Source: an uncultured Aliiroseovarius sp.
GTDB taxonomy: Bacteria > Pseudomonadota > Alphaproteobacteria > Rhodobacterales > Rhodobacteraceae
DNA: 64,000 nt
Assembly: GCF_947497285.1 (NCBI RefSeq)
Contig: NZ_CANMFT010000004.1
Location: forward strand, 369,595-433,594
Reading direction: 5' to 3'
The notes beneath the pieces were generated by a model, which searched no databases, had not been told where the DNA came from, and worked only from the letters and a program-made list of their open reading frames with translations. Below are positions 17,324 through 63,135 of the stretch, piece by piece. The position numbers and the translations under genes were made by a program. Positions within the stretch are counted from its first letter, which is position 1. Every line of letters begins with the position of its first letter.

Positions 17324-18565
17324 ATGAATGAGACACGCGCGCGCCTTATCACGCCCGTCCTTGTGGCAGGCTGTTTGATCATCCTTGTCAGCTTCGCGAT
17401 CCGCGCGAGCTTTGGCGTGTTTCAGATCCCGATTGCGACCGAGTTCAACTGGCCGCGTGCCGAGTTCTCGTTGGCGATTGCCATCCAGAACCTTGCATGG
17501 GGGATCGGGCAGCCGATCTTTGGGGCTATCGCTGAAAAAGTCGGAGACCACAAAGCCATCATCATGGGGGCGCTGATCTATGCGGTGGGGCTGGTGGCGT
17601 CGTCCTATGCGGTCACACCAGAAGCGCACCAACTGTTAGAAATCGCCGTGGGCTTCGGCATCGCCGGCACGGGCTTCGGCGTGATTCTGGCCGTTGTTGG
17701 GCGGGCGGCCAGCGATGACAACCGGTCTATGTCGCTGGCCATCGCGACTGCTGCGGGGTCGGCAGGTCAGGTGTTCGGCGCACCGCTGGCGGAATACCTG
17801 CTGGGCTTCATGTCGTGGCAGAACGTATTTGTCATCTTCGCCGCCGCGATCCTTGCAACGCTGGCGCTGCTTCCCCTGATGAAGACCGAAACAATCGCGT
17901 CGAAAGCCGAACTTGAAGACAGCATGGGTCAGATCCTGACCAAGGCGATGCGCGATCCCAGCTTCGCGCTGATCTTTCTGGGCTTCTTTTCCTGCGGCTA
18001 TCAGCTGGCCTTCATCACCGCCCACTTTCCCGCCTTCGTGACCGAGATGTGTGGCGCGATTGACCCCTCTGGCACATTGGCGACGATCGGCGTTTCGACC
18101 ACGTCGGCGCTGGGGGCAATCTCGATCTCCCTGATCGGGTTGGCCAACATCGCGGGCACGCTCTTGGCGGGTTATCTGGGCAAGACCTATTCCAAGAAAT
18201 ACTTGCTGGCAGGGATTTATGCGGCGCGGACAGTGGTCGCCGCACTGTTTATCCTGACGCCGATCACACCGACATCCGTCATCGTATTTTCCATCGCAAT
18301 GGGGTCGCTGTGGCTGGCCACGGTTCCGCTGACCTCTGGTCTGGTCGCGCATATCTATGGGCTGCGCTATATGGGCACGCTGTATGGGATCGTCTTCTTC
18401 TCACACCAGTTGGGCAGCTTCCTGGGTGTTTGGCTGGGCGGGCGGATGTATGACGCGTTCGGCGATTATACCATGGTGTGGTGGATTGGCGTCGGCGTCG
18501 GTGCCTTTTCGGCCATCGTCCACTTGCCGGTGAAAGAGCAACCACTGGCCGCGCGCGCGGTCTAA
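17324..18565 (+). CDS. MFS transporter
   Basis: 413 residues from ATG 17324, with about twelve membrane segments. The first cytoplasmic loop region after TM2 reads IFGAIAEKVGDHKAIIMGA, a variant of the MFS motif A; the central loop (LMKTETIASKAELEDSMGQ) separates two six-helix halves. It resembles the oxalate/formate or monocarboxylate-like MFS subgroup, but the substrate is not clear. It converges with the Lrp gene, the two stop codons overlapping by four bases. Confidence 0.88.
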   Translation: MNETRARLITPVLVAGCLIILVSFAIRASFGVFQIPIATEFNWPRAEFSLAIAIQNLAWGIGQPIFGAIAEKVGDHKAIIMGALIYAVGLVASSYAVTPEAHQLLEIAVGFGIAGTGFGVILAVVGRAASDDNRSMSLAIATAAGSAGQVFGAPLAEYLLGFMSWQNVFVIFAAAILATLALLPLMKTETIASKAELEDSMGQILTKAMRDPSFALIFLGFFSCGYQLAFITAHFPAFVTEMCGAIDPSGTLATIGVSTTSALGAISISLIGLANIAGTLLAGYLGKTYSKKYLLAGIYAARTVVAALFILTPITPTSVIVFSIAMGSLWLATVPLTSGLVAHIYGLRYMGTLYGIVFFSHQLGSFLGVWLGGRMYDAFGDYTMVWWIGVGVGAFSAIVHLPVKEQPLAARAV

Positions 18566-51993: not shown

Positions 51994-52344
51994 TCACTGC
52001 TCACCCGTCGACAAGATACGTGAACGGGTCAGGAAATGTGTTGTCCGTCCATTGTCCAAGCTGAACCCGGCACCGCTTCCAGGACCAGCGTCCAGGATCA
52101 TTTGCGAGTTCTTCCAAAGGTCGGCAATTGACGGAGAGGCCCATATCCCAGCGTTATCTGCATCGCCGAGTTTAACGTCATTCGAACCGATCATGACATC
52201 GCTTTCACGGAAACACATAGGCCCGGTCCCATCGCAGCACCCGGCTGAGATCTTGAAAACAACCTCACCATGCTCGGCGCGCAACTCTGCCAGAAGCGCA
52301 AGCGCCGCTTCCGTCACAACGACCTTCTCTGACTTGTCCGGCAT
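51994..52344 (-). CDS. DUF779 domain protein
   Basis: 116 residues: VTEAALALLAELRAEHGEVVFKISAGCCDGTGPMCFRESDVMIGSNDVKLGD, then GFSLDNGRTTHFLTRSRI. The Cys-Cys...Cys cluster (GCCDGTGPMCF) suggests metal binding. DUF779 genes often sit beside NAD aldehyde dehydrogenases in alcohol-oxidation loci, which fits the aldehyde dehydrogenase 2 kb away. Function unknown. Its upstream region has a dyad shared with two other genes of the block (52399). Confidence 0.88.
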   Translation of the reverse strand: MPDKSEKVVVTEAALALLAELRAEHGEVVFKISAGCCDGTGPMCFRESDVMIGSNDVKLGDADNAGIWASPSIADLWKNSQMILDAGPGSGAGFSLDNGRTTHFLTRSRILSTGEQ

Positions 52345-52398
52345 AGCATTCTCTCCTCTTCGCTACATAGCGTATTGTGGAAGCAAGCAGAACTGAAT

Positions 52399-52412
52399 GC
52401 GACTAAAGTCCA
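52399..52412. promoter_or_regulatory. Shared dyad upstream of the DUF779 gene (copy 1)
   Basis: GCGACTAAAGTCCA: arms GAC and GTC around TAAA, 55 bases before the DUF779 ATG. It shares CGAC-(T/C)AAA-GTC with copies at 52988 and 54391. This copy is less symmetrical than those. Confidence 0.55.
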
Positions 52413-52423
52413 AGGCTCCTTGC

Positions 52424-52475
52424 GGTCACACATATGTGCGACCACTATGGATTGTGCAGAAAGGATGGTCGCACA
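52424..52475. repeat. Inverted and direct GGTC(A/G)CACA elements between cytochrome c and DUF779 genes
   Basis: GGTCACACATATGTGCGACC (52424-52443) is a near-perfect palindrome with one mismatched pair. GGTCGCACA recurs at 52467-52475. It lies between the cytochrome c stop and the DUF779 start, and could be an operator or a transcript-end structure. Confidence 0.5.
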
Positions 52476-52487
52476 AGACGTGCGAAG

Positions 52488-52904
52488 TCACTCGGATATC
52501 GTGGCGTTATCCCGGGTCGTGATGCTGCCGAGATAGGCAAGAATGAAGTCCTGAACTGTGCGATCTTCTATGCCGACATGGCGCATCTTCGTGCCCGGAA
52601 TGAAGCCATCATTGTCCTCCATCCAGGCGCGGAGCGCTGCTGGTGTCCAAACGATGCCCGAAGCTTCCAAACTGGTTGAGTAGTCGTAGTCCTGAATAAC
52701 ACCCGCACCGCGCCCGACGATGTTTTCAAGCGGCGGCCCATAGCTAGGACCCGTAGCATCCGGCGCATGACATTTGCGGCATTCCGAATTGTATAGTTTT
52801 TCTCCGGCTTCGACCTTGATCTTCTCGAAGGTGGAGTCTGCTGCGGCCGGTGAAGCCACGACTGCAAGGCAAACGATGCTGAAAGTGCGGGCGAGATGTT
52901 TCAT
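52488..52904 (-). CDS. Periplasmic class I cytochrome c
   Basis: 138 residues from ATG 52904 (GGAGGTACC upstream). Signal peptide to about residue 22, then heme-binding Cys42-Arg-Lys-Cys45-His46 and likely axial Met107 (GTKMRHVG). A single-heme c-type cytochrome of the c550/c2 type, the natural electron acceptor of PQQ alcohol dehydrogenases. It is the only cytochrome c in the block, so it probably takes electrons from the dehydrogenase encoded at 60275. Confidence 0.92.
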   Translation of the reverse strand: MKHLARTFSIVCLAVVASPAAADSTFEKIKVEAGEKLYNSECRKCHAPDATGPSYGPPLENIVGRGAGVIQDYDYSTSLEASGIVWTPAALRAWMEDNDGFIPGTKMRHVGIEDRTVQDFILAYLGSITTRDNATISE

Positions 52905-52955
52905 TGGTACCTCCGATTTGATGCCCGATGATAGAATGCGGCCGAGAGGCTCCAT

Positions 52956-52969
52956 TTGACGCAGGTCAA
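52956..52969. promoter_or_regulatory. Crp/Fnr-type dyad upstream of cytochrome c
   Basis: TTGAC-GCAG-GTCAA, a perfect 5+4+5 dyad 52-65 bases before the cytochrome c ATG. The form resembles sites of Crp/Fnr-superfamily regulators (Fnr prefers TTGAT-N4-ATCAA). It suggests oxygen, nitric-oxide or redox control of this gene in addition to the dyad at 52988. Confidence 0.45.
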
Positions 52970-52987
52970 TAAAACATGGGTAACTGC

Positions 52988-53005
52988 CTACGACTTTAGT
53001 CGTAG
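52988..53005. promoter_or_regulatory. Shared dyad upstream of cytochrome c (copy 2)
   Basis: CTACGACTTTAGTCGTAG: perfect 7-base arms around TTTA. It lies 84 bases before the cytochrome c ATG and 31 bases past the PPOX stop. On the minus strand the core reads CGACTAAAGTCG, the same as copies 1 and 3. A terminator role for PPOX is possible, but there is no T run. Confidence 0.6.
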
Positions 53006-53035
53006 ATGGCAGTGCGGAAAGACACCTGTCTTGGG

Positions 53036-53656
53036 CTAGTTGCTACCCGCCGTCAACTCAGCCAACTTGGCTTTCAGTGCATCGTTCTCTGCTTGCAACT
53101 CGGCCGCATAGTTTTCCGTCGCCGCGTTCGCGACATCGACAGGCACGAATGCCGGGATGTATTTGGGGCAGTTCCAGTCCATCGCAACGACATCGACAAC
53201 CAAAAGCCGCTCGGCGGGTGTTCCCTCGGTCGGGAAGTGTTTCAACACCTCAGGATCCGCGTCACCAAGTCGAACCAGACTGGCGCGCCCCTGAATTTTC
53301 ATCCGCGCGCGACGCATGTAGTCCATCAAGAACAACGAGACCCTTGGATCCTCGGCGACATGCCCCATGGTAATGAATTGCCGGTTGCCAACATAATCCA
53401 GGCAAGCGATGCGGGTCGGGTTGACGGCCTTCAGAAAGCCCGTTGGACCTCCGCGGTGTTGGACATATGGCCATCCGTCCGGGTTCACGCTTGCGATATA
53501 AATGCTCTGACGTGACTGAATGAAGGCAACGTCATCTGGGCTAAGTGCGGATTGCGTTCGGCGCTGATAGCTGGCTTTGTGAACGCCATAACAACCTTCG
53601 GCCTTCTGGATTTCGGCGACCTGTCCGCGAAACATCAGATTTGCGTAGTCTTCCAT
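53036..53656 (-). CDS. PPOX-type flavin-binding protein in the alcohol-oxidation block
   Basis: 206 residues of the pyridoxamine-5'-phosphate oxidase-like fold: SRQSIYIASVNPDGWPYVQHRGGPTGFLKAVNPTRIACLDYVGNRQFITMGHVAEDPRVSLFLMDYMRRARMKIQGRASLV. The RGNR/R-x-F-I-x-M-G-N pattern is that of the FMN-binding subclass. It ends in a coiled-coil tail (NYAAELQAENDALKAKLAEL). Its presence beside alcohol-oxidation genes is unexplained. Followed at 30 bases by the Sel1 gene upstream on the same strand. Confidence 0.85.
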   Translation of the reverse strand: MEDYANLMFRGQVAEIQKAEGCYGVHKASYQRRTQSALSPDDVAFIQSRQSIYIASVNPDGWPYVQHRGGPTGFLKAVNPTRIACLDYVGNRQFITMGHVAEDPRVSLFLMDYMRRARMKIQGRASLVRLGDADPEVLKHFPTEGTPAERLLVVDVVAMDWNCPKYIPAFVPVDVANAATENYAAELQAENDALKAKLAELTAGSN

Positions 53657-53686
53657 TCGAAGGCTCCTTTCAAATGGCGCATACCC

Positions 53687-54256
53687 TTAGAAAGCGAGCG
53701 GATTGTATTTCCAGCTGTCCGCATCGGGTGTGACACTTTCAAGATCATAGTCGTTGTCGATCAGATGCTGAGCCCGCGGTTGTCCCATCGCCGCAGCGGC
53801 TTCAATCATCCTGCGCCCCTTTTCTTCATCAACGGCAACACCGCGGCCACGCAGCAGGTTGAGACCGTGATTGAACATACCAACCTCGCTGCCGGCCTCA
53901 GCCGCACGGCGATCCCATTCAGCAGCGGCTTCGGGGTCTTCTGGCCCCGCCAATCCGTTGTCAGCCATCCATGAAAGCCACGTCATGCCTTGCGCGCTGG
54001 CGTATTCATCCACGGATCCTTGGAAGAGTTTCTTCGCGTCGTCGTGCAGTCCAGCCTTTGCCGCGAAATATCCCATTGCATACTCCATGGGATAGGATTC
54101 GCCATGCTTTAGCCGGTCAAGCGCACCATGAAGTGTAAGCTCTTCGGGGTTGTGGGTTCCAAACTCGTCAGATTTCATTGTCCTGTCCTGTGCACTCGCC
54201 GTTGCAGCGACAAGCAACACGGCGACACAGAGCGGTAGCAGCCTGTTCGAGTTCAT
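53687..54256 (-). CDS. Periplasmic Sel1-like repeat protein
   Basis: 189 residues. Signal peptide MNSNRLLPLCVAVLLVAATASA; body of alpha-helical pairs (YAMGYFAAKAGLHDDAKKLFQGSVDEYASAQGMTWLSWMADNGLAG and AGSEVGMFNHGLNLLRGRGVAVDEEKGRRMIEAAAAMGQPRAQHLI) typical of Sel1/TPR-like solenoids. It probably binds a partner protein in the periplasm. Its start region is 221 bases from the divergent aldehyde dehydrogenase. Specific function unknown. Confidence 0.85.
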   Translation of the reverse strand: MNSNRLLPLCVAVLLVAATASAQDRTMKSDEFGTHNPEELTLHGALDRLKHGESYPMEYAMGYFAAKAGLHDDAKKLFQGSVDEYASAQGMTWLSWMADNGLAGPEDPEAAAEWDRRAAEAGSEVGMFNHGLNLLRGRGVAVDEEKGRRMIEAAAAMGQPRAQHLIDNDYDLESVTPDADSWKYNPLAF

Positions 54257-54390
54257 TGGTTCCTCCGTGGCAATGCAGGTCCATGGATTGCGCTATGGGT
54301 GCGTGCGGCGAGCAATGCCCGGCCCATTAGCATCTTCCAAGTGTGCACCAAAACCGAGCGCGTGCGAAATTCTTTTCTCAAATTGGGTCT

Positions 54391-54404
54391 CCGACCAAAG
54401 TCGG
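54391..54404. promoter_or_regulatory. Shared dyad upstream of aldehyde dehydrogenase (copy 3)
   Basis: CCGACCAAAGTCGG: perfect 5-base arms around CAAA, 74 bases before the aldehyde dehydrogenase ATG and 135 bases from the divergent Sel1 gene. Same core as copies at 52399 and 52988. Confidence 0.6.
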
Positions 54405-54477
54405 GGATGCTGAATTGAATTTCGAGGTCCATGATTTCGCAATCAACATTTCATTCACCAACTAGGGAGGAGACGTT

Positions 54478-55998
54478 ATGAACGAGATGGCACAAGAGGC
54501 AGGGACCTTTGCCTCACCCTTCAAGACTCGTTACGACAACTATATCGGTGGCAAGTTTGTACCGCCGGTCGAGGGGAAGTATTTTGACAATGTCACACCG
54601 ATCTCAGGCGAGGTCGTGTGCGAAGTTGCCCGTTCGGGCGCTGCGGACATCGAGCTGGCGCTGGACGCTGCACATGCTGCGAAAGAGGCATGGGGCAAAA
54701 CGTCAGCGACCGAGCGGTCGAACATTATCTTGAAGATCGCCGACCGGATCGAGGAAAACCTCGATATTATCGCAACTGCAGAAACATGGGACAACGGCAA
54801 GCCGATCCGCGAAACCACGGCGGCTGATATTCCGCTGGCGGTGGACCACTTCCGTTATTTCGCCGGCGTCCTGCGCAGCCAAGAAGGCACGATGTCAGAG
54901 ATCGATGCAGACACGGTGGCCTATCACTATCACGAGCCTTTGGGCGTTGTCGGTCAGATCATTCCGTGGAACTTCTCGATCCTGATGGCAGCTTGGAAAC
55001 TGGCGCCTGCGCTGGCTGCGGGCAACTGTATCGTGCTGAAGCCGGCTGAACAGACTCCGGCTGCAATCATGGTCCTGATGGAGATCATCGCTGACCTGCT
55101 GCCGGATGGTGTGTTGAACATCGTGAACGGATACGGTGCCGAAGTTGGTGCCCCACTGGCCCGATCAAACCGCATTGCCAAGATCGCCTTTACCGGTTCG
55201 ACCGAAACTGGCCGTGTAATCATGCAGGCCGCGACCGAAAACCTGATCCCCGTGACGCTGGAGCTGGGCGGTAAATCCCCCAACATCTTCTTCTCGGACA
55301 TCATGGCCAAAGATGACGCGTTCCTGGACAAAGCCGTCGAAGGCTTCGTTCTGTTTGCCTTCAACCAAGGCGAAGTCTGCACCTGCCCAAGCCGCGCGCT
55401 TGTCCAGGAAGACATCTATGAAGAGTTCATGGCCCGCTGCATTGAGCGTGTAAAAGCGATCAAGCAAGGTGATCCACGTCTGGCAGATACCATGGTGGGC
55501 GCACAGGTTAGCAAAGAACAGCAGGACAAAATCATGTCCTACATGACCATTGGTCGCGAAGAAGGTGCCGAGGTTCTGGTAGGCGGTGACGCGGCACGGT
55601 TCAATGGTGATCTTGCTGGTGGTTACTATGTGCAACCGACAATCCTGAAAGGCCACAACAAGATGCGCGTCTTCCAGGAAGAAATCTTTGGCCCAGTTGT
55701 GTCGGTGACGACCTTCAAGGACGAAGAAGAAGCGCTGCAGATCGCCAACGACACGATGTATGGCCTTGGTGCCGGCGTCTGGTCGCGTGACGCCAACACG
55801 TGCTATCGCTTTGGCCGCGCTATCGAAGCCGGGCGTGTTTGGGTGAACAACTATCACGCTTACCCTGCGCATGCGGCCTTTGGTGGCTACAAGCAGTCCG
55901 GCATCGGGCGTGAGAACCACAAGATGATGCTTGGTCACTATCAGCAGACCAAAAACATCCTGATGAGCTACAACCCCAACAAGTTGGGCTTCTTCTAA
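54478..55998 (+). CDS. NAD-dependent aldehyde dehydrogenase (acetaldehyde type, ExaC/AcoD-like)
   Basis: 506 residues, characteristic of the acetaldehyde-oxidising group. NAD site [13 protein letters not shown] and Asn165 (PWNFS), general base Glu262 (LELGGKSPN), catalytic Cys301 or Cys303 ([11 protein letters not shown]). It oxidises the aldehyde made by the PQQ dehydrogenase to a carboxylate. GGGAGGAGACGTT gives a strong start. Its upstream region carries dyad copy 3. Cytosolic, so the aldehyde must cross the inner membrane. Confidence 0.95.
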
Positions 55999-56100: not shown

Positions 56101-58338
56101 TTAGTCTTGCGCATTTGCACGGCTTGCCAAAAGCCCGCCGAGCAGTTCCTGCAAGTCTTCTATGTCGAGCGGTTTGTGGCGAAGAAACACCCCCTGCCCT
56201 TGCGCCTCTCGCGCCAGTTCGTTTGATCGATCAGCGGTTAAGAGAACGCAAAGCAATGGGCCGTGCTTGGCGCGAAGGTTCTGGATCAGGTCGAGACCGT
56301 TTTTATTGTCGTCGAGGTGGTAGTCGACCAGAAAAACATCCGGCGTCAGATCAAGCTCAGCGATCTGCGCTTCTGCGTCTTCCTGCGACGCCGCGATGAT
56401 CGGCGCCGCGCCCCACGTTTCAAGCACACGCTCCATCGCATCACGCACAGCGGGGTCGTTTTCGATCACCATGATAAGGGCATTTTTTAACGAACGAGGC
56501 GTCCCCCTTCTTGCCTGCATGGTCTCGACCGGAAGTTGTTCCTGCTCGGCAAACGGGACAGAAACACGGATGGATGTTCCTTTTCCTACGGTCGAGGTCA
56601 AAGAAAGGTCGTGCTCTAACATCAGACAAGCGCGTTCTACGATCGCAAGCCCAAGACCCATTGCAGAATCCGAGGCCTGACTCGGATCGGACCTGTGAAA
56701 CTCTTTGAAAACAAGTTCTTGCTCTTCGGGTGAAATCCCGACGCCCGTGTCAATCACGTGAATATCTATGCAATCTGCCCGGCGACGGACCCCGACCAAA
56801 ACCCGGCCTTCGTTCGTATACCGGATAGCGTTTGAAACGAGGTTCTGAAGGATGCGACGAAGATAAACAGGGTCAGAATTTACACACGCCGAGGTGCCAA
56901 CGACGGTCAACTCAAGCCCCTTTTCTAACGCCGAGTCAGAAAATTCGTCCAGAAGGCGATCAAATATCTGATCGAGTGAGAAGTCTGACACATTCAGAGC
57001 GACCTGACCTGAATCGAGCTTCGAGATATCGAGAAGTGCGCCCAAAATGGCCTCAACGGATTGAAAGCTCTTCGAAATTCTGCTGACAATCGAGTTTTGC
57101 TTTTTGTCGAGAACCGTATGCTCCAACGACGAGATAAAAAGCTTTGCGGCGTTCACGGGCTGCAAAAGGTCATGGCTTGCGGCGGCAACGAACCTCGATT
57201 TTGAAGCATTTGCCCGCTCCGCAGAATCTCTGGCGGCGCGAAGCTCGTGAGTTCTTTCTATGACGCGCTGTTCCAGCGTTTCGTTTGCCTGATGCAAGTC
57301 CTTGTGGGTCTGGCGCAGCTTGGTGACGTCGTTAAACGAGACAACGAACGACCCATCCGCCATCTCTTGCCCCATCACATCATACTGAAAACCGTTTACC
57401 GCTTCCAATTCGCAGCGCAATACCTCTCGGTTTTTGCGAAGCGACGCCCAATTAAAGACAAGCTCTGGCTGGCTATCAGTGGTGAACACAACACCTGGCT
57501 CGAAAAGCCGCTCGAATCTTGCCAAACGCATTCCTGCGCGCGCAAGCCGCCGGTGCATTTTCAGAATTTCGACGGCTGCATCATTCCACTCCACAAGCTT
57601 GCAATCTGCGTCGAAAATCAGGACGCCCTGTTCGATGTGTTCAAGCGTCGCTTTGACGATCTTTGCTTGCCGGTCAAGGATTTTTGCACGCTCTTCTCGC
57701 TCAAGGCGCGTGTGGTCAGTGATGTCAGTCTGAAGCACGATCGTGCCACCGTCCGGGGTGTTTTGTTCACTAATCTGAAGCCAAAGGTCATCCTTCAGCT
57801 CAAGCGTGAAGTTGACCGAGTTGCTTTCGTGAACCTCTATTCTTCGGTCGACCCATTCATCCACGGACAATTTGTCGGGCCGGATGATGTATTTACTGCC
57901 AGCGCTCTGGCGAAGATATTCCTCGAAGCTGATGCCTTGTTTGATCTCACCGACCACGTCTGGAAACATCGCCGAAAACCGGGAATTTTTCATAACCAGC
58001 TTGTCGCTGGCATCAAAAATAGCAAAGCCTTCCTGAATGGACTCGACGGCTGTCGAAAGGTCTCGCCGCGCTTCCTCGGCTTCCCGTTGCGCTGTCGCAA
58101 GTTGGGCGTTGGTCGCATGAAGCACGTCCAAGGCTTCTTCCAGCTTGCGTGTCCTCTGCTGGACTTCCCCTTCCAGTGCAATCGCACGCTCGAAATGCGT
58201 AAAGCCCTTGGCACTGTCCACGGTCGCGCGCTCGACCCGTGACATAAGCTTGTCGACAATGACCTTCAGCTTCTCGTTTTCACGCTCAAGGCTGTCGGAA
58301 GCCTTTAAAAGGCCGTCTGTTGAATGGATGTTACTCAT
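56101..58338 (-). CDS. Soluble PAS-containing hybrid histidine kinase (ErcS'/NahK-like)
   Basis: 745 residues, no membrane segment. N-terminal coiled coil (1-100), PAS around 100-210 (AVESIQEGFAIFDASDKLVMKNSRFS) and a second PAS around 230-345. Kinase core follows with His389 in AASHDLLQPVNAAKLFISSL, N box NLVSNAIRYT, DTGVG and GLGLAIV. A C-terminal receiver carries Asp672 (VDYHLDD) and Lys722. It resembles kinases of Pseudomonas alcohol-oxidation regulation. Overlaps the FIST gene by eight bases. Confidence 0.92.
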   Translation of the reverse strand: MSNIHSTDGLLKASDSLERENEKLKVIVDKLMSRVERATVDSAKGFTHFERAIALEGEVQQRTRKLEEALDVLHATNAQLATAQREAEEARRDLSTAVESIQEGFAIFDASDKLVMKNSRFSAMFPDVVGEIKQGISFEEYLRQSAGSKYIIRPDKLSVDEWVDRRIEVHESNSVNFTLELKDDLWLQISEQNTPDGGTIVLQTDITDHTRLEREERAKILDRQAKIVKATLEHIEQGVLIFDADCKLVEWNDAAVEILKMHRRLARAGMRLARFERLFEPGVVFTTDSQPELVFNWASLRKNREVLRCELEAVNGFQYDVMGQEMADGSFVVSFNDVTKLRQTHKDLHQANETLEQRVIERTHELRAARDSAERANASKSRFVAAASHDLLQPVNAAKLFISSLEHTVLDKKQNSIVSRISKSFQSVEAILGALLDISKLDSGQVALNVSDFSLDQIFDRLLDEFSDSALEKGLELTVVGTSACVNSDPVYLRRILQNLVSNAIRYTNEGRVLVGVRRRADCIDIHVIDTGVGISPEEQELVFKEFHRSDPSQASDSAMGLGLAIVERACLMLEHDLSLTSTVGKGTSIRVSVPFAEQEQLPVETMQARRGTPRSLKNALIMVIENDPAVRDAMERVLETWGAAPIIAASQEDAEAQIAELDLTPDVFLVDYHLDDNKNGLDLIQNLRAKHGPLLCVLLTADRSNELAREAQGQGVFLRHKPLDIEDLQELLGGLLASRANAQD

Positions 58339-59476
58339 GGTCAGGCGGATAGATGGCTATCCCGGTTAGGGTTTGGTTTACGTGAAGCATATTGTGCTGT
58401 TCACCATAGGTCGAAAAGCCGATCACGCGGTGTTTCTTCAAGAGGGCAGACATGTTGCTGACTTCTTGTTTCTGCTCCGCTTCAAGTCGTCTGAGAATGC
58501 AATCACAGGCAAAAATCAGATCAGGTTCACACTCGGCCGACAGACCTTCGAGCACATCTTGAAGATGTCTGGTAATACTGCTTGCATTGGCAACCGTAAG
58601 CACCATGCCCTCGTCAATCGAGGCGAAGAAACGCAGGTGCCCGTTGTCCTCGACGCGCTGAATGGCACGGACATGGTGTTGATCACCCACCGAAACCACA
58701 ATCGGATGCGACGCAAATATGAACGGCGACAACTGGTTTGGATCAATGCCGACGATGCGGGCGTATTCGGGCGCTGCCGGTTCTGCGTTGATCTCGGTCA
58801 CAAGGCGCTTTTCGGGGATCGCGCCGGTGACCACCAACCGTTTTTCCGACGATTCAAAATGGTCTTCCCGGAACACCTTGAAGCGACAATCGCTGCGAAC
58901 AACAAGAACGATCGCTGCATTGCTGCTGACCACACCATTGTAAAACACAGGCGCACTTTCGAACCGCAGCCCATCCCCGGACGAGCCACCAAAAAGCTGG
59001 GTCGTTCCCAATGCGGTCGAGATGTTCAGAACGAATGCGTCCTCGCGCCGCGACAGACCGTCGACCAGAACAAAGGCAAATTCGTTTACAAATTCGTGCC
59101 GTTGCGCCTGGGCATCGTGGCGAAGGGCAAGAACTTCGCGGCCAATGGCGACCTCGTCTGGATTGTCCAACGCCTGAAACATGCGCGCGCTTGCCGCGAA
59201 ATGGGTTTGCGGAAAGCCAAGTGCGACGATCTTTTGATCGCTATAGCCCTCGTCGCAAATCTCACCTGCCGTACGTGCGCCAAGGATATGCGGCGCGTCG
59301 ATCCTGTCTTGCAGCGTTGCGGTCAGCGCCTCCAGGTCCACTTCCGGCGACGCCAACACGATCACACAGGCATAGGCCGTATCACCCAGCGCATCGACCA
59401 GCCTTGCGGTTGGGTCTGTTTCATCCGTCAAGTCGACAGACACGGTTGCGATGATGCGCGCGCGAAGCTCGTCCAA
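58331..59476 (-). CDS. FIST domain sensory protein
   Basis: 381 residues with FIST-N (about 20-215: ILGARTAGEICDEGYSDQKIVALGF, LFGGSSGDGLRFE) and FIST-C (about 220-360: FIFASHPIVVS, VEDNGHLRFFASIDEGMVL, DLIFACDCILRRLE). FIST domains are proposed small-ligand sensors, often beside kinases. It lies in the order response regulator, FIST, kinase on one strand and probably feeds a signal to that kinase. Confidence 0.9.
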   Translation of the reverse strand: MDELRARIIATVSVDLTDETDPTARLVDALGDTAYACVIVLASPEVDLEALTATLQDRIDAPHILGARTAGEICDEGYSDQKIVALGFPQTHFAASARMFQALDNPDEVAIGREVLALRHDAQAQRHEFVNEFAFVLVDGLSRREDAFVLNISTALGTTQLFGGSSGDGLRFESAPVFYNGVVSSNAAIVLVVRSDCRFKVFREDHFESSEKRLVVTGAIPEKRLVTEINAEPAAPEYARIVGIDPNQLSPFIFASHPIVVSVGDQHHVRAIQRVEDNGHLRFFASIDEGMVLTVANASSITRHLQDVLEGLSAECEPDLIFACDCILRRLEAEQKQEVSNMSALLKKHRVIGFSTYGEQHNMLHVNQTLTGIAIYPPDHE

Positions 59477-59507: not shown

Positions 59508-60200
59508 CTAGCCTTCCCCTGACAAAGAAGCATAACTGACTTTCTTTGCAAGCAATACCGCCTGCGTTCTGTTTTGCACGCCAAGCTTGCGCATTATTGC
59601 GGTAAGATGGGCCTTCACCGTCGTCTCGGCGATCGACAGATCATAGGCAATCTGTTTGTTAAGCTTACCTTCGCAGATCAGGTTCAAGATAACGGATTGC
59701 TGTGGGGTGAGGCTGGTAAGCTTCTCGACAATCGAATGGTGCTCTTGCGCCAGACAATCCCCCTGCGGCACGACGAAATCTTCTGGCGTGTAGATTTCAC
59801 CATCAGCGACAATCTGGAATGCACGCACAAGTTCGTCGCGCGGACTGCCCTTGGGAACAAAGCCCACAGCACCCGCATCAAGAACGCTCGACGTGACACG
59901 GTTGTCCGAGATGGACGAAACCACGACAATCTTCGCGTCGGGCGCGGCCCCTCGCAGTCTGATCAATCCATCCACCCCATCGACGTCGGGCAGATTCAGA
60001 TCCAAGACAATGAGGTCCGGCAACGATCGGGTAACTTGTAGCAGCGCTTCATTCAGCGTTGAGGCGGTTCGGATCATGGGGGCGTCGAAAATCTCTCCGA
60101 CGGTCATCGCCATCGCATCGCAAAACAACGGGTGATCGTCGATCAACAACAACTTCAGTTCGTTGGTTTCCCCGATAAGTGGCATGACGACCTCAGCCAT
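59508..60200 (-). CDS. LuxR-type response regulator (ErbR/AgmR-like)
   Basis: 230 residues from ATG 60200 (GGAG just upstream). Receiver at 15-130 with phospho-Asp67 (LIVLDLNLPDVDG) and Lys117; LuxR helix-turn-helix at 162-222 (SLTPQQSVILNLICEGKLNKQIAYDLSIAETTVKAHLTAIMRKLGVQNRTQAV). It is the likely DNA-binding partner of the hybrid kinase, and the obvious candidate to bind the shared GAC-YAAA-GTC dyads. An earlier in-frame start is possible but is disfavoured because it runs through the terminator of the dehydrogenase gene. Confidence 0.93.
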   Translation of the reverse strand: MAEVVMPLIGETNELKLLLIDDHPLFCDAMAMTVGEIFDAPMIRTASTLNEALLQVTRSLPDLIVLDLNLPDVDGVDGLIRLRGAAPDAKIVVVSSISDNRVTSSVLDAGAVGFVPKGSPRDELVRAFQIVADGEIYTPEDFVVPQGDCLAQEHHSIVEKLTSLTPQQSVILNLICEGKLNKQIAYDLSIAETTVKAHLTAIMRKLGVQNRTQAVLLAKKVSYASLSGEG

Positions 60201-60274: not shown

Positions 60275-62026
60275 TCAGTTGATGACCGGGACCCTGAAGA
60301 CCCAGATCGAGCCACCTTGGTTGAGGAAGTTGACCTTCTTGGCCACTTCGCCACCCCAAAGCGGAACAGCGCCACCCCAACCGGATGCAACCGCAACATA
60401 CTGTTGGCCATCTTGTTCCCAAGTCACGGGTTGTCCGACGATGCCGGACCCGGTTTGGAACTTCCACAGCTCTTCACCAGTATCTGCGTCAAACGCTTTG
60501 AGGTATCCCTCAGGCGTGCCGGTGAAGACCAGGCCGCCGGCTGTCGCCATCACGCCACCCCAAAGAGGTGCATCGTTCTTGTATTCCCATTTGATATCGC
60601 CGGTGTTCGGGTCGATCGCTTTCAGGGAACCGATGTAATCTTCAAAGATCGGTTTGATCGTGAAGCCAGAACCAAGGTAAGCTGCTCCTTCTTTGTAGCT
60701 GACGGGCTCGTTCCAGATATCCATGCCCCATTCGTTAGAGGGGACGTAGAACAGGCCGGTGTCCGGGCTGTGTGCCATGGGCATCCAGTTCTTGCCGCCC
60801 AGGAAGGACGGAACCGAGAACACAACGTCGCCTTTGCCACCGTCAGCTGCATCAGCCGGGTTGCCGGGGCGATTTTCCTCGTTGTAGATCGGGCGACCGT
60901 TTTCGTCGATGCCTTCTGCCCAAGTGATCTCTTTCACGAAGGGCGATGCCGAAACAAACGCGCCATCTTCACGGTTCAGAACATAGAAGAAGCCGTTGCG
61001 ATCGGCAGTGGCGTAACGCTTGTTGCCTTCGGCGTCCACGAAAGGAACCACTTCGTTCACACCATCAAAATCCCAGCCTTCGCGCGGGGTGGTCTGGAAG
61101 TGCCACTTGATTTCGCCATTTGCCGGATCGATCCCGATACGTGAAGCAGCATAGAGGTTGTCCCCTGACCCGTCATTCTTGTCGCCTGCGTCGCGCAGCC
61201 AAGAATTCCACGGTGCCGGGTTGCCTGCACCAAACACAAGCGTGTCCGTATCGGCGTCATACGTGCCACCAAGCCACGTCGCACCGCCGCCGGTTTTCCA
61301 AAGGTCGCCGGGCCAGGTTGCGTTCAGCTCGCCTGTCATGGTGCTTTCTTCGCCGTTCAGCGTGCCCATGTGCCCTTCGATGACCGGACGCGTCCAAACA
61401 AGGTCGCCTGTCTCTGCGTCGCGCGCCTGAACCTCGCCAATGATGCCAAATTCACCACCCGAGTTACCGGTGACGACAAGGCCGTTCACGATCAGCGGGG
61501 CGGATGTATAAGAATACCCGGCCTTGTAGTCTGCGATCTTGTCTTTCCAGACGACATCGCCAGTTTTCAGATCAAGCGCGACGATCCGGGCATCCAAGGT
61601 GCCAAAGAAGATCTTGTCGCCATAGATCGCACCGCCACGGTTGATCACGTCACAGCATGGCAAAATGCCTTCAGGTAGACGCGCGTCATACTGCCAGATC
61701 TCTTCGCCCGTCTCGATATCAATCGCGTAGAGCCGCGAATACGAGCCGGTCACATACATGATACCATCATAGATCAGCGGCTGGGTTTCCTGCCCGCGCT
61801 GTTTTTCGCCGCCCATCGAGAACGCCCAAGCCGGAACCAGGTTCTTTACGTTCTCTTTGTTGATCATGTCGAGCGGGCTATAGCGCTGCTGATGGCGCCC
61901 CATGCCGTTGCTTACGATCTGTGTGGTGATGTTTTGATCGTTGGCGATGTCTTCTTCAGTCACCGCCGCGATCGACGCCGTTGCTGCGATCAGCATCGCA
62001 GACGTCGTCAGTAGCAATTTATTCAT
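60275..62026 (-). CDS. PQQ-dependent alcohol dehydrogenase with lanthanide-site signature
   Basis: 583 residues from ATG 62026 (GGGAGGACATT upstream), signal peptide about 1-20. Eight-bladed quinoprotein; vicinal Cys124-Cys125 ([11 protein letters not shown]), metal-site Glu192 (GGEFG), Asn269 (GNPAPWN) and catalytic Asp319 with an extra Asp321 (WDFDGVNE). The Asp at +2 is the hallmark of lanthanide-dependent enzymes (XoxF, ExaF/PedH); calcium enzymes have a small residue there. No C-terminal heme domain, so it needs the separate cytochrome c. Ethanol-type or methanol-type preference cannot be told. Confidence 0.93.
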
Positions 62027-62175
62027 AATGTCCTCCCAATCCGAGACCACAGAAACGTCAGATTTCTGTCTTGGAAAAAGGTCGCGGAAAGTGTCGGCGA
62101 GCGGTATTGCCAATTGGTCGTATATGAGAGGCGCCCCCTGTTTGCTTAGGTTTCAAGTGAACAGGGAGGACTGTT

Positions 62176-63135
62176 ATGTTTGGATTCAAGAAAGCCGCGC
62201 TTGGCGCGATGCTTGCCTGTGTGGCACAGATTTCAGTGGCCGCCGATCTACCCGTCATACGCCTTGGCGCTCTATCCTTTGGCACCGTCAATTGGGAGCT
62301 TGATACGATCAAGCACAACGGCCTCGACGAAGCGAACGGCTTTGTCCTTGAAGTTGTGCCGATGGGTGGCGGGAACGCCTCTGACATCGCGTTTCTTGGC
62401 GGCGAGGTTGACGCAATGGTCTCGGACGTTGTGTGGGCCGCGCGTCAACGTGCCGAAGGGCGCGATCTGAAATTTATCCCGTATTCTACGGCTGTTGGCG
62501 GCATCATGGTCAAGCCTGACAGCGGTATCTCCGACCTTGCCGGACTGGAAGGCAAGAAAATCGGTATCGCCGGTGGTCCGCTTGATAAAAGCTGGCTGAT
62601 CTTGCAGGCATATGCCGAAAAAACCGCTGGCTTGGATCTTGAAGCGATCACGAAGCAAGAGTTCGGCGCACCACCGCTTATGTTCAAATCCGCACTGACT
62701 GGCGAAATCGATGCCGTGATCAACTTTTGGCATTTTCAAGCGAAAGCCAAAGCGGCGGGTCTGGTTGAAATCATCTCGGTTCAGGATGCGGCAGAGGCTT
62801 TAGGTCTAAGCGCGACGACACCACTTCTGGGCTATATCGTTTCGGGTGACATGGACGCGAAACTTGCGCAGGCGCTCTATCGCGCATCGCGTGCCGCCAA
62901 AGACATCCTGCGTGATGACGCATCTGCTTGGGACGTCGTTCGTCCTCGCATGAAACCAGAGAATGACGCCCAGTTCGACGCGCTGAAAGCCGGCTTCATC
63001 GCTGGCATTCCACAAAGCACTGAAATCGACACTGACGCGGTCGAACAGATGCTCGGCCTTATGGGCGAACTCGGTGGCGAAGACCTTGTTGGCAAGGCGA
63101 CGACCCTTCCAGCAGGTCTGTTTATCGGAAGCTAG
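62176..63135 (+). CDS. NitT/TauT-like ABC transporter substrate-binding protein
   Basis: 319 residues. Signal peptide MFGFKKAALGAMLACVAQISVAA, then a SsuA/TauA-like binding fold (IRLGALSFGTVNWELDTIKHNGLDEANGFVLEVVPMGGGNASDIAFLGGEVDAMVSDVVWAARQRAEGRD, PDSGISDLAGLEGKKIGIAGGPLDKSWLILQAYAEKT). Divergent from the PQQ dehydrogenase over 149 bases and first gene of a receptor-permease-ATPase operon. It is longer than the XoxJ/MxaJ accessory proteins and has its own permease, so import is likely. Ligand unknown. Confidence 0.9.
   Translation: MFGFKKAALGAMLACVAQISVAADLPVIRLGALSFGTVNWELDTIKHNGLDEANGFVLEVVPMGGGNASDIAFLGGEVDAMVSDVVWAARQRAEGRDLKFIPYSTAVGGIMVKPDSGISDLAGLEGKKIGIAGGPLDKSWLILQAYAEKTAGLDLEAITKQEFGAPPLMFKSALTGEIDAVINFWHFQAKAKAAGLVEIISVQDAAEALGLSATTPLLGYIVSGDMDAKLAQALYRASRAAKDILRDDASAWDVVRPRMKPENDAQFDALKAGFIAGIPQSTEIDTDAVEQMLGLMGELGGEDLVGKATTLPAGLFIGS

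Follow-up and report, generated by a model that had tools for sequence, protein, structure and literature searches.

The 64,000-nucleotide stretch of an uncultured Aliiroseovarius sp. analysed here (the window) carries three copies of an inverted repeat with the core GACYAAAGTC. They stand upstream of the genes for a DUF779 protein, a cytochrome c and an aldehyde dehydrogenase of the ExaC type, in a locus that also encodes a pyrroloquinoline quinone (PQQ)-dependent alcohol dehydrogenase. This raises the question of which protein, if any, reads these dyads. We will argue that they are most probably operators of the LuxR-type response regulator encoded in the same locus, at 59508-60185, a prediction made from sequence comparison. 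It is supported by the clustering of the dyads, the exclusivity of the form that includes arm bases, the conservation in relatives, a contrast within the genus, the regulator's lack of a close paralogue in the genome, the likeness to the ACTU motif of the regulator CrbR, and the fact that ErdR is the best family model for the local protein. The original prediction, made from this DNA without database searches, had named the same regulator; the conservation, the tie to the local regulator in the genus, the ACTU likeness and the lack of a close paralogue all speak for that choice.

Clustering of the dyads

The decamer GACYAAAGTC has three matches in the window, where 0.16 are expected (standard deviation 0.42), and at least three were found in none of 100 dinucleotide shuffles. 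The copies lie where they had been reported, 55, 84 and 74 bases before the starts of the DUF779 (52344), cytochrome c (52904) and aldehyde dehydrogenase (54478) genes.

In the 3.37 Mb genome the decamer occurs 12 times, compared with 27 times for a reversed control. Were 12 sites placed at random, some three of them would lie within a span of 2002 bases with a probability of 2e-4 (3e-3 if 27 sites are assumed), so that it is the clustering, and not the decamer alone, that is the special feature here. The nine copies outside the locus are single and scattered. Each falls within an open frame 112 amino acids long or longer (the frames are unverified as genes), and the copy L012 in addition ends shortly before a 425-residue open reading frame (ORF) starts. 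The genome scan suggested in the original prediction leaves it standing, since the other nine copies are isolated and lie in open frames, although the decamer as such occurs there no less often than expected. The strict decamer was rejected as a regulon marker for the whole genome, with nine of 12 copies scattered and fewer copies than the reversed control.

Adding one arm base on each side of the decamer gives CGACYAAAGTCG, which has exactly two copies in the genome, both at this locus; dyad 1 is without its right-hand G. With one mismatch allowed, this 12-mer is useless as a regulon list (38 places versus 111 for the control).

Conservation and the contrast within the genus

Scanning with the local response regulator gave 330 related loci, of which the best 80 form the set called regulator-linked loci below. 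In the closest of these, L013, L014 and L016 from Aliiroseovarius and, for exaC, also L015 from Actibacterium, the dyads appear as conserved islands amid diverged flanks. Upstream of the cytochrome c gene CTACGACTAAAGTCGTAG is kept, while upstream of exaC the sequence reads CGACCAAAGTCGGGG, with a single change in L016 (CTACCAAAGTCGGGG). Upstream of DUF779, L016 carries GACAAAGGTC.

The contrast within the genus was drawn from 21 genomes, including that of the window and three that share the coordinates of L013, L014 and L016, so that the genus is most probably Aliiroseovarius; the exaC orthologue is present in 11 of them, the cytochrome in seven and the regulator in eight. Five genomes have a close regulator (87-100% identical). 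All five keep the exaC dyad (the exact decamer in four, one change in G006) and the 17-mer of the cytochrome c dyad, and four keep the DUF779 decamer, which in G006 is the degenerate GACAAAGGTC. In the three genomes with a diverged regulator (53-55%), a variant, ATTAGCCTAAAGTCGCA, is found upstream of exaC in every case, and both of those that have a cytochrome match carry TACGACCAAAGCACGAT upstream of it. The remaining three genomes contain exaC and no regulator match at E 1e-40, and the site is absent from all three (scores of -0.9 to -1.6). The dyads are thus kept in close relatives that keep the locus, as the original prediction required, and absent before the exaC orthologue in three of three congeners without a regulator match at that threshold.

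In one congener without the regulator (L146), an ORF that by eye resembles an AcoR-type regulator (L146:3153-4169) lies directly upstream of exaC, which suggests that one regulator has been swapped for another.

Likeness to the ACTU motif

The ACTU motif of CrbR from Pseudomonas fluorescens is an imperfect inverted repeat that is required for activation (PMC5715377). It shares with the dyads a core of the GAC-N4-GTC type and a LuxR-type response regulator as ligand, in the case of the dyads a proposed one, and the members predicted in Table 4 of that work include TACGACTAAAGTCTAAA. The placement is also similar to that of the dyads: upstream of acs, the site occupies -52 to -36 relative to the transcription start, which is itself 34 bases before the first codon (PMC5715377). 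The targets differ, being the acetate genes acs and actP for CrbR (PMC5715377) and alcohol and aldehyde oxidation here.

A matrix of four CrbR sites, taken from genes verified in PMC5715377, was used to rank the 127,968 positions of the window. Dyad 2 comes first and dyad 1 third, and none of 200 permuted matrices put any dyad in its top three. Dyads 1 and 2 are hence inverted repeats with a four-base spacer that score with a matrix of published sites, as ACTU members do; dyad 3 differs from ACTU by its G/C-rich arms and its poor fit to the matrix. The variant ATTAGCCTAAAGTCGCA of the diverged-regulator genomes scores 14.8 with the ACTU matrix, which was equalled by none of 60 permuted matrices. 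An exploratory matrix mixed window and CrbR sites and omitted one L015 decamer below position 2000; the tests use matrices of published sites only.

The motif was also searched for in the 80 regulator-linked loci, with a matrix of six ACTU sites, two of which are predictions, and a threshold of 10 bits. Rows in which the match started after query residue 25, or with fewer than 150 upstream bases, were dropped, PNPOx (three rows) was left unscored, and L013 and L014 count as misses for pedA1. Sites of at least 10 bits were found upstream of pedF in 25 of 25 cases, pedA1 in 14 of 16, the PQQ dehydrogenase in 22 of 29, cytochrome c in 10 of 19, exaC in 4 of 7, DUF779 in 3 of 5 and NMT1 in 7 of 16, and for each of these genes the mean score tops all 100 permuted matrices. 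The control genes gave 0/70 for FIST, 2/76 for the kinase, 0/24 for pedA2, 0/21 for SBP, 5/43 for the ATPase, 2/16 for Sel1 and 1/10 for the permease; ACTU sites are rare upstream of operon-internal genes in these loci. The conservation of the recognition helix, over 81 regulator rows, was kept out of the evidence, since peptides from that region had seeded the search for loci.

Relaxing the ACTU pattern and allowing one mismatch gives eight matches in the genome, versus three for the control, and three of the eight are in this cluster. Of the five matches elsewhere, the four examined fall in ORFs (L167, L169, L174 and L173); L173 coincides with the decamer copy L010, within open frames, and L167 is inside an ORF that by eye resembles adenosine deaminase.

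Since ACTU is known for CrbR and not for the local regulator (PMC5715377), and since the genome encodes remote relatives of the latter (17 matches in all), the dyads could instead be operators of another NarL/LuxR-type regulator encoded elsewhere, for example CrbR/ErdR. We regard this as improbable. The second-best match that the genome offers is just 26% identical (E 8.9e-13), so that the local regulator has no close paralogue there, the exaC site tracks its presence in the genus, and the sites recur around it in the 80 loci. The local regulator itself scores 165.7 bits with ErdR, the best of 68 NCBIfam models (NarL, the next cited, gives 124.3), and fails the ErdR cut-off of 390 bits by a wide margin, in which it differs from CrbR/ErdR.

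Sites beyond the three dyads

It had been noted earlier that the PQQ dehydrogenase has no clear copy before it. A full dyad is indeed lacking, and what had been missed is the half-site block TACGACCAATTGGCAATA, which shares the left half-site of the dyads. This block is conserved in L013-L018 and has no other match in the genome at up to three mismatches. In the alignments of the relatives it appears as ATACGACCAATTGGCAATA, again with the left half-site of the dyads, and in two metagenome-assembled genomes of Thiotrichaceae (L017, L018) as ATACGACTAATTGGTAATA. Counted by eye over the regulator-linked loci, the half-site TACGACY is found upstream of 27 of 29 PQQ dehydrogenases, and TACGAC on either strand upstream of all 19 cytochromes.

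A further ACTU-type site, TTGGACCAAGGTCGAAT, is located 5 kb beyond the window on the same contig, in the divergent pedF/pedA1 promoter. The adjoining stretch (L166) encodes PedF, PedA1 and PedA2, all over their NCBIfam cut-offs. The known sites extend over about 17 kb of one contig, and the predicted operator set is wider than first described, comprising also the half-site variant at the PQQ dehydrogenase and the pedF/pedA1 site outside the window.

Weighing the assignment

A number of observations count against the operator assignment. With the four-site CrbR matrix dyad 3 only reaches rank 30, and rank 2 is taken by position 18508, outside the locus. The ACTU scores upstream of exaC in the five close-regulator genomes (6.2-7.5) are reached by 10-19 of 60 permuted matrices, 19 of 60 for the window's own, which means that dyad 3 is carried by its core and its conservation, and that the core alone links it to ACTU. 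At the PQQ dehydrogenase, the right half of the block does not match the dyad; with the left half kept and the right one not, binding there may be asymmetric or require a second factor. Upstream of the regulator's own gene, scores of 10 bits or more occur in only 14 of the 80 loci, with a mean score that 2 of 100 permuted matrices also reach, and autoregulation as a general rule was discarded on that count.

The samples have limits as well. The 80 loci were all chosen for the regulator and include many close relatives (related Ruegeria), and the divergent pairs pedF/pedA1 and PQQ dehydrogenase/NMT1 can share promoters, so that their counts cannot be treated as independent. Within the genus, the contrast comprises 11 related genomes, and one exaC upstream region in the group without the regulator (G009) has 39 masked bases.

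Finally, the decamer by itself is no commoner genome-wide than its reversed control. This speaks for a reading in which the dyads are due to chance, or have some other role such as that of an RNA element, but one that the clustering, the conservation against diverged flanks and the matrix tests make highly improbable.

Organization of the locus and proposed mechanism

The features of the locus are collected in Table 1.

Table 1. Predicted sites and genes of the locus. Positions refer to the window except where a contig or locus handle is given.
Feature	Position	Strand	Remarks
DUF779 protein	51994..52344	-	PF05610, 1.8e-30
Dyad 1, TGCGACTAAAGTCCAAG	52398..52414	+	upstream of DUF779 gene; decamer at 52401-52410
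Cytochrome c	52488..52904	-	PF00034; nearest NCBIfam model Cyt550, far under cut-off
Dyad 2, CTACGACTAAAGTCGTAG	52988..53005	-	upstream of cytochrome c gene; decamer at 52992-53001
Dyad 3, TCCGACCAAAGTCGGGG	54390..54406	+	upstream of exaC-type aldehyde dehydrogenase; decamer at 54393-54402
Aldehyde dehydrogenase, ExaC type	54478..55998	+	NF050026, 934.2 bits, passes cut-off 900
Hybrid histidine kinase	56101..58338	-	PAS_7, HisKA, HATPase, receiver
FIST protein, NosP-like	58331..59476	-	PF08495, PF10442; NosP model 375.4 bits, fails cut-off 450
Response regulator, proposed dyad ligand	59508..60185	-	receiver and GerE domain; best NCBIfam model ErdR
PQQ-dependent alcohol dehydrogenase	60275..62023	-	TIGR03075, 770.9 bits, passes cut-off 480.05
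Half-site block, TACGACCAATTGGCAATA	62105..62122	-	between divergent PQQ dehydrogenase and NMT1-type binding protein; shares left half-site of dyads
NMT1-type binding protein	62176..63135	+	PF09084; divergent from PQQ dehydrogenase
ACTU-type site, TTGGACCAAGGTCGAAT	C4:438729-438745 (= L166:5730-5746)		divergent pedF/pedA1 promoter, 5 kb beyond window, same contig

In the mechanism that we propose, a signal from alcohol, aldehyde or redox state would cause the hybrid kinase to phosphorylate the regulator, and the NosP-like FIST protein would perhaps tune the kinase. A dimer of the regulator would then bind the dyad, some 55-100 bases upstream of the start codon, and would most likely activate the promoter. 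The cytochrome and the ped-type accessory operon would thereby rise jointly with the oxidation of alcohols and aldehydes.

The local regulator might also bind the dyads and repress these promoters. The RfdRS system of Rhodobacter sphaeroides is thought to repress adhI (PMC4776306), and deletion of erdR raised most of the tested ErdR targets in Pseudomonas aeruginosa (PMC9927353). Activation by CrbR in P. fluorescens, on the other hand, requires the ACTU repeat (PMC5715377), and AgmR (PMC12997753) as well as FlhRS and AfdRS (PMC4776306) are described as activators. Repression is therefore unlikely, and activation by the local regulator remains our preferred reading.

The PQQ dehydrogenase contains the sequence GWDFDG, whose D-x-D spacing is typical of lanthanide-dependent enzymes; it may thus use lanthanides.

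Between the cytochrome gene and dyad 2, the window contains at 52956-52969 another element, TTGACGCAGGTCAA, 33 bases centre to centre from dyad 2. It is also found in L013, L014, L016 and L155, and resembles an FNR/DNR-type box.

Comparison with known systems

The order regulator-FIST-kinase, on one strand from 60185 down to 56101, corresponds to the order regulator-middle ORF-sensor kinase of FlhRS from Paracoccus denitrificans (flhR-orf2-flhS) and of AfdRS/RfdRS from R. sphaeroides (afdR-afdT-afdS) (PMC4776306). The likeness is one of gene order, orf2, afdT and rfdT being compared by position. In both of the regulator-linked flhA loci found, an ACTU-type site lies upstream of flhA, at 139 bases in L044 and 149 bases in L019.

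The ped cluster of Pseudomonas, with its regulator AgmR (PedR1, ErbR), resembles the locus in that a NosP/GfdT protein, a hybrid kinase and a LuxR-type activator are encoded beside PQQ dehydrogenase genes; its gene set includes NosP, PedS1/NahK and AgmR (PMC12997753). PedF, PedA1 and PedA2 are likewise near the PQQ dehydrogenase and the regulator here. In P. putida, AgmR also controls pqq genes (PMC12997753). A search for the PqqC family gave no match in the present genome and none in 14 control genomes either, and is hence uninformative on pqq control.

The local regulator thus probably belongs with FlhR, AfdR and AgmR (ErbR), and its operator grammar seems to be that of the relative CrbR/ErdR. 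No operators of AgmR, FlhR or AfdR were found in the literature surveyed; the original papers lie outside that survey, and an operator may be in print there.

A more distant parallel is offered by DosR/DevR, whose consensus probe contains GACTAAAGTC and which contacts DNA through lysine 182 (PMC5999986). In an alignment, the local regulator also has a lysine at this position, which offers a structural reason for the shared core. The other two contact residues, K179 and N183, are replaced by T and A in the local regulator, the arms of the DosR probe are G/C-rich, and its targets and signal are different (PMC5999986).

The RpuR motif of Sinorhizobium fredii, needed by a LuxR-type regulator of a carbon-source system, was considered as the closest motif and rejected, since it is a direct repeat and not a dyad (PMC9100948).

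Implications

Genetics has shown FlhRS and AfdRS (PMC4776306) and AgmR (PMC12997753) to be switches that control the oxidation of methanol, formaldehyde and ethanol. A unifying reading is possible for the whole branch of regulators to which these belong. We give an even chance to the proposal that GAC-YAAA-GTC with mostly AT-rich arms is one operator code common to FlhR, AfdR, AgmR/ErbR and CrbR/ErdR in Alpha- and Gammaproteobacteria. If so, this branch would use one code to control the oxidation of alcohol, formaldehyde, aldehyde and acetate in its successive steps, and the operators of FlhR, AfdR and AgmR could be read from genome sequence. The recovery of the predicted operator across regulator-linked loci by the matrix of another system would already make the regulons readable in this way. 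The predicted operator also suggests that the NosP-like protein beside the kinase acts on alcohol oxidation, and the shared code would put a NosP-like sensor in control of this process in these loci.

Two elements were seen beside the kinase genes of relatives. The palindrome TTAGACCATGGTCTAAT lies just past the kinase at L017:13212-13228 and L018:5946-5962, and in L017 it precedes ORFs that by eye resemble ferredoxin and aldehyde ferredoxin oxidoreductase. In Marivita-type loci a CGAC-N4-GTCGTA dyad (L042:14680, L058:14681, L026:14683 and L049:14683) is found 141-144 bases upstream of a thioesterase-like ORF beside the kinase, in four of the ten loci with that ORF.

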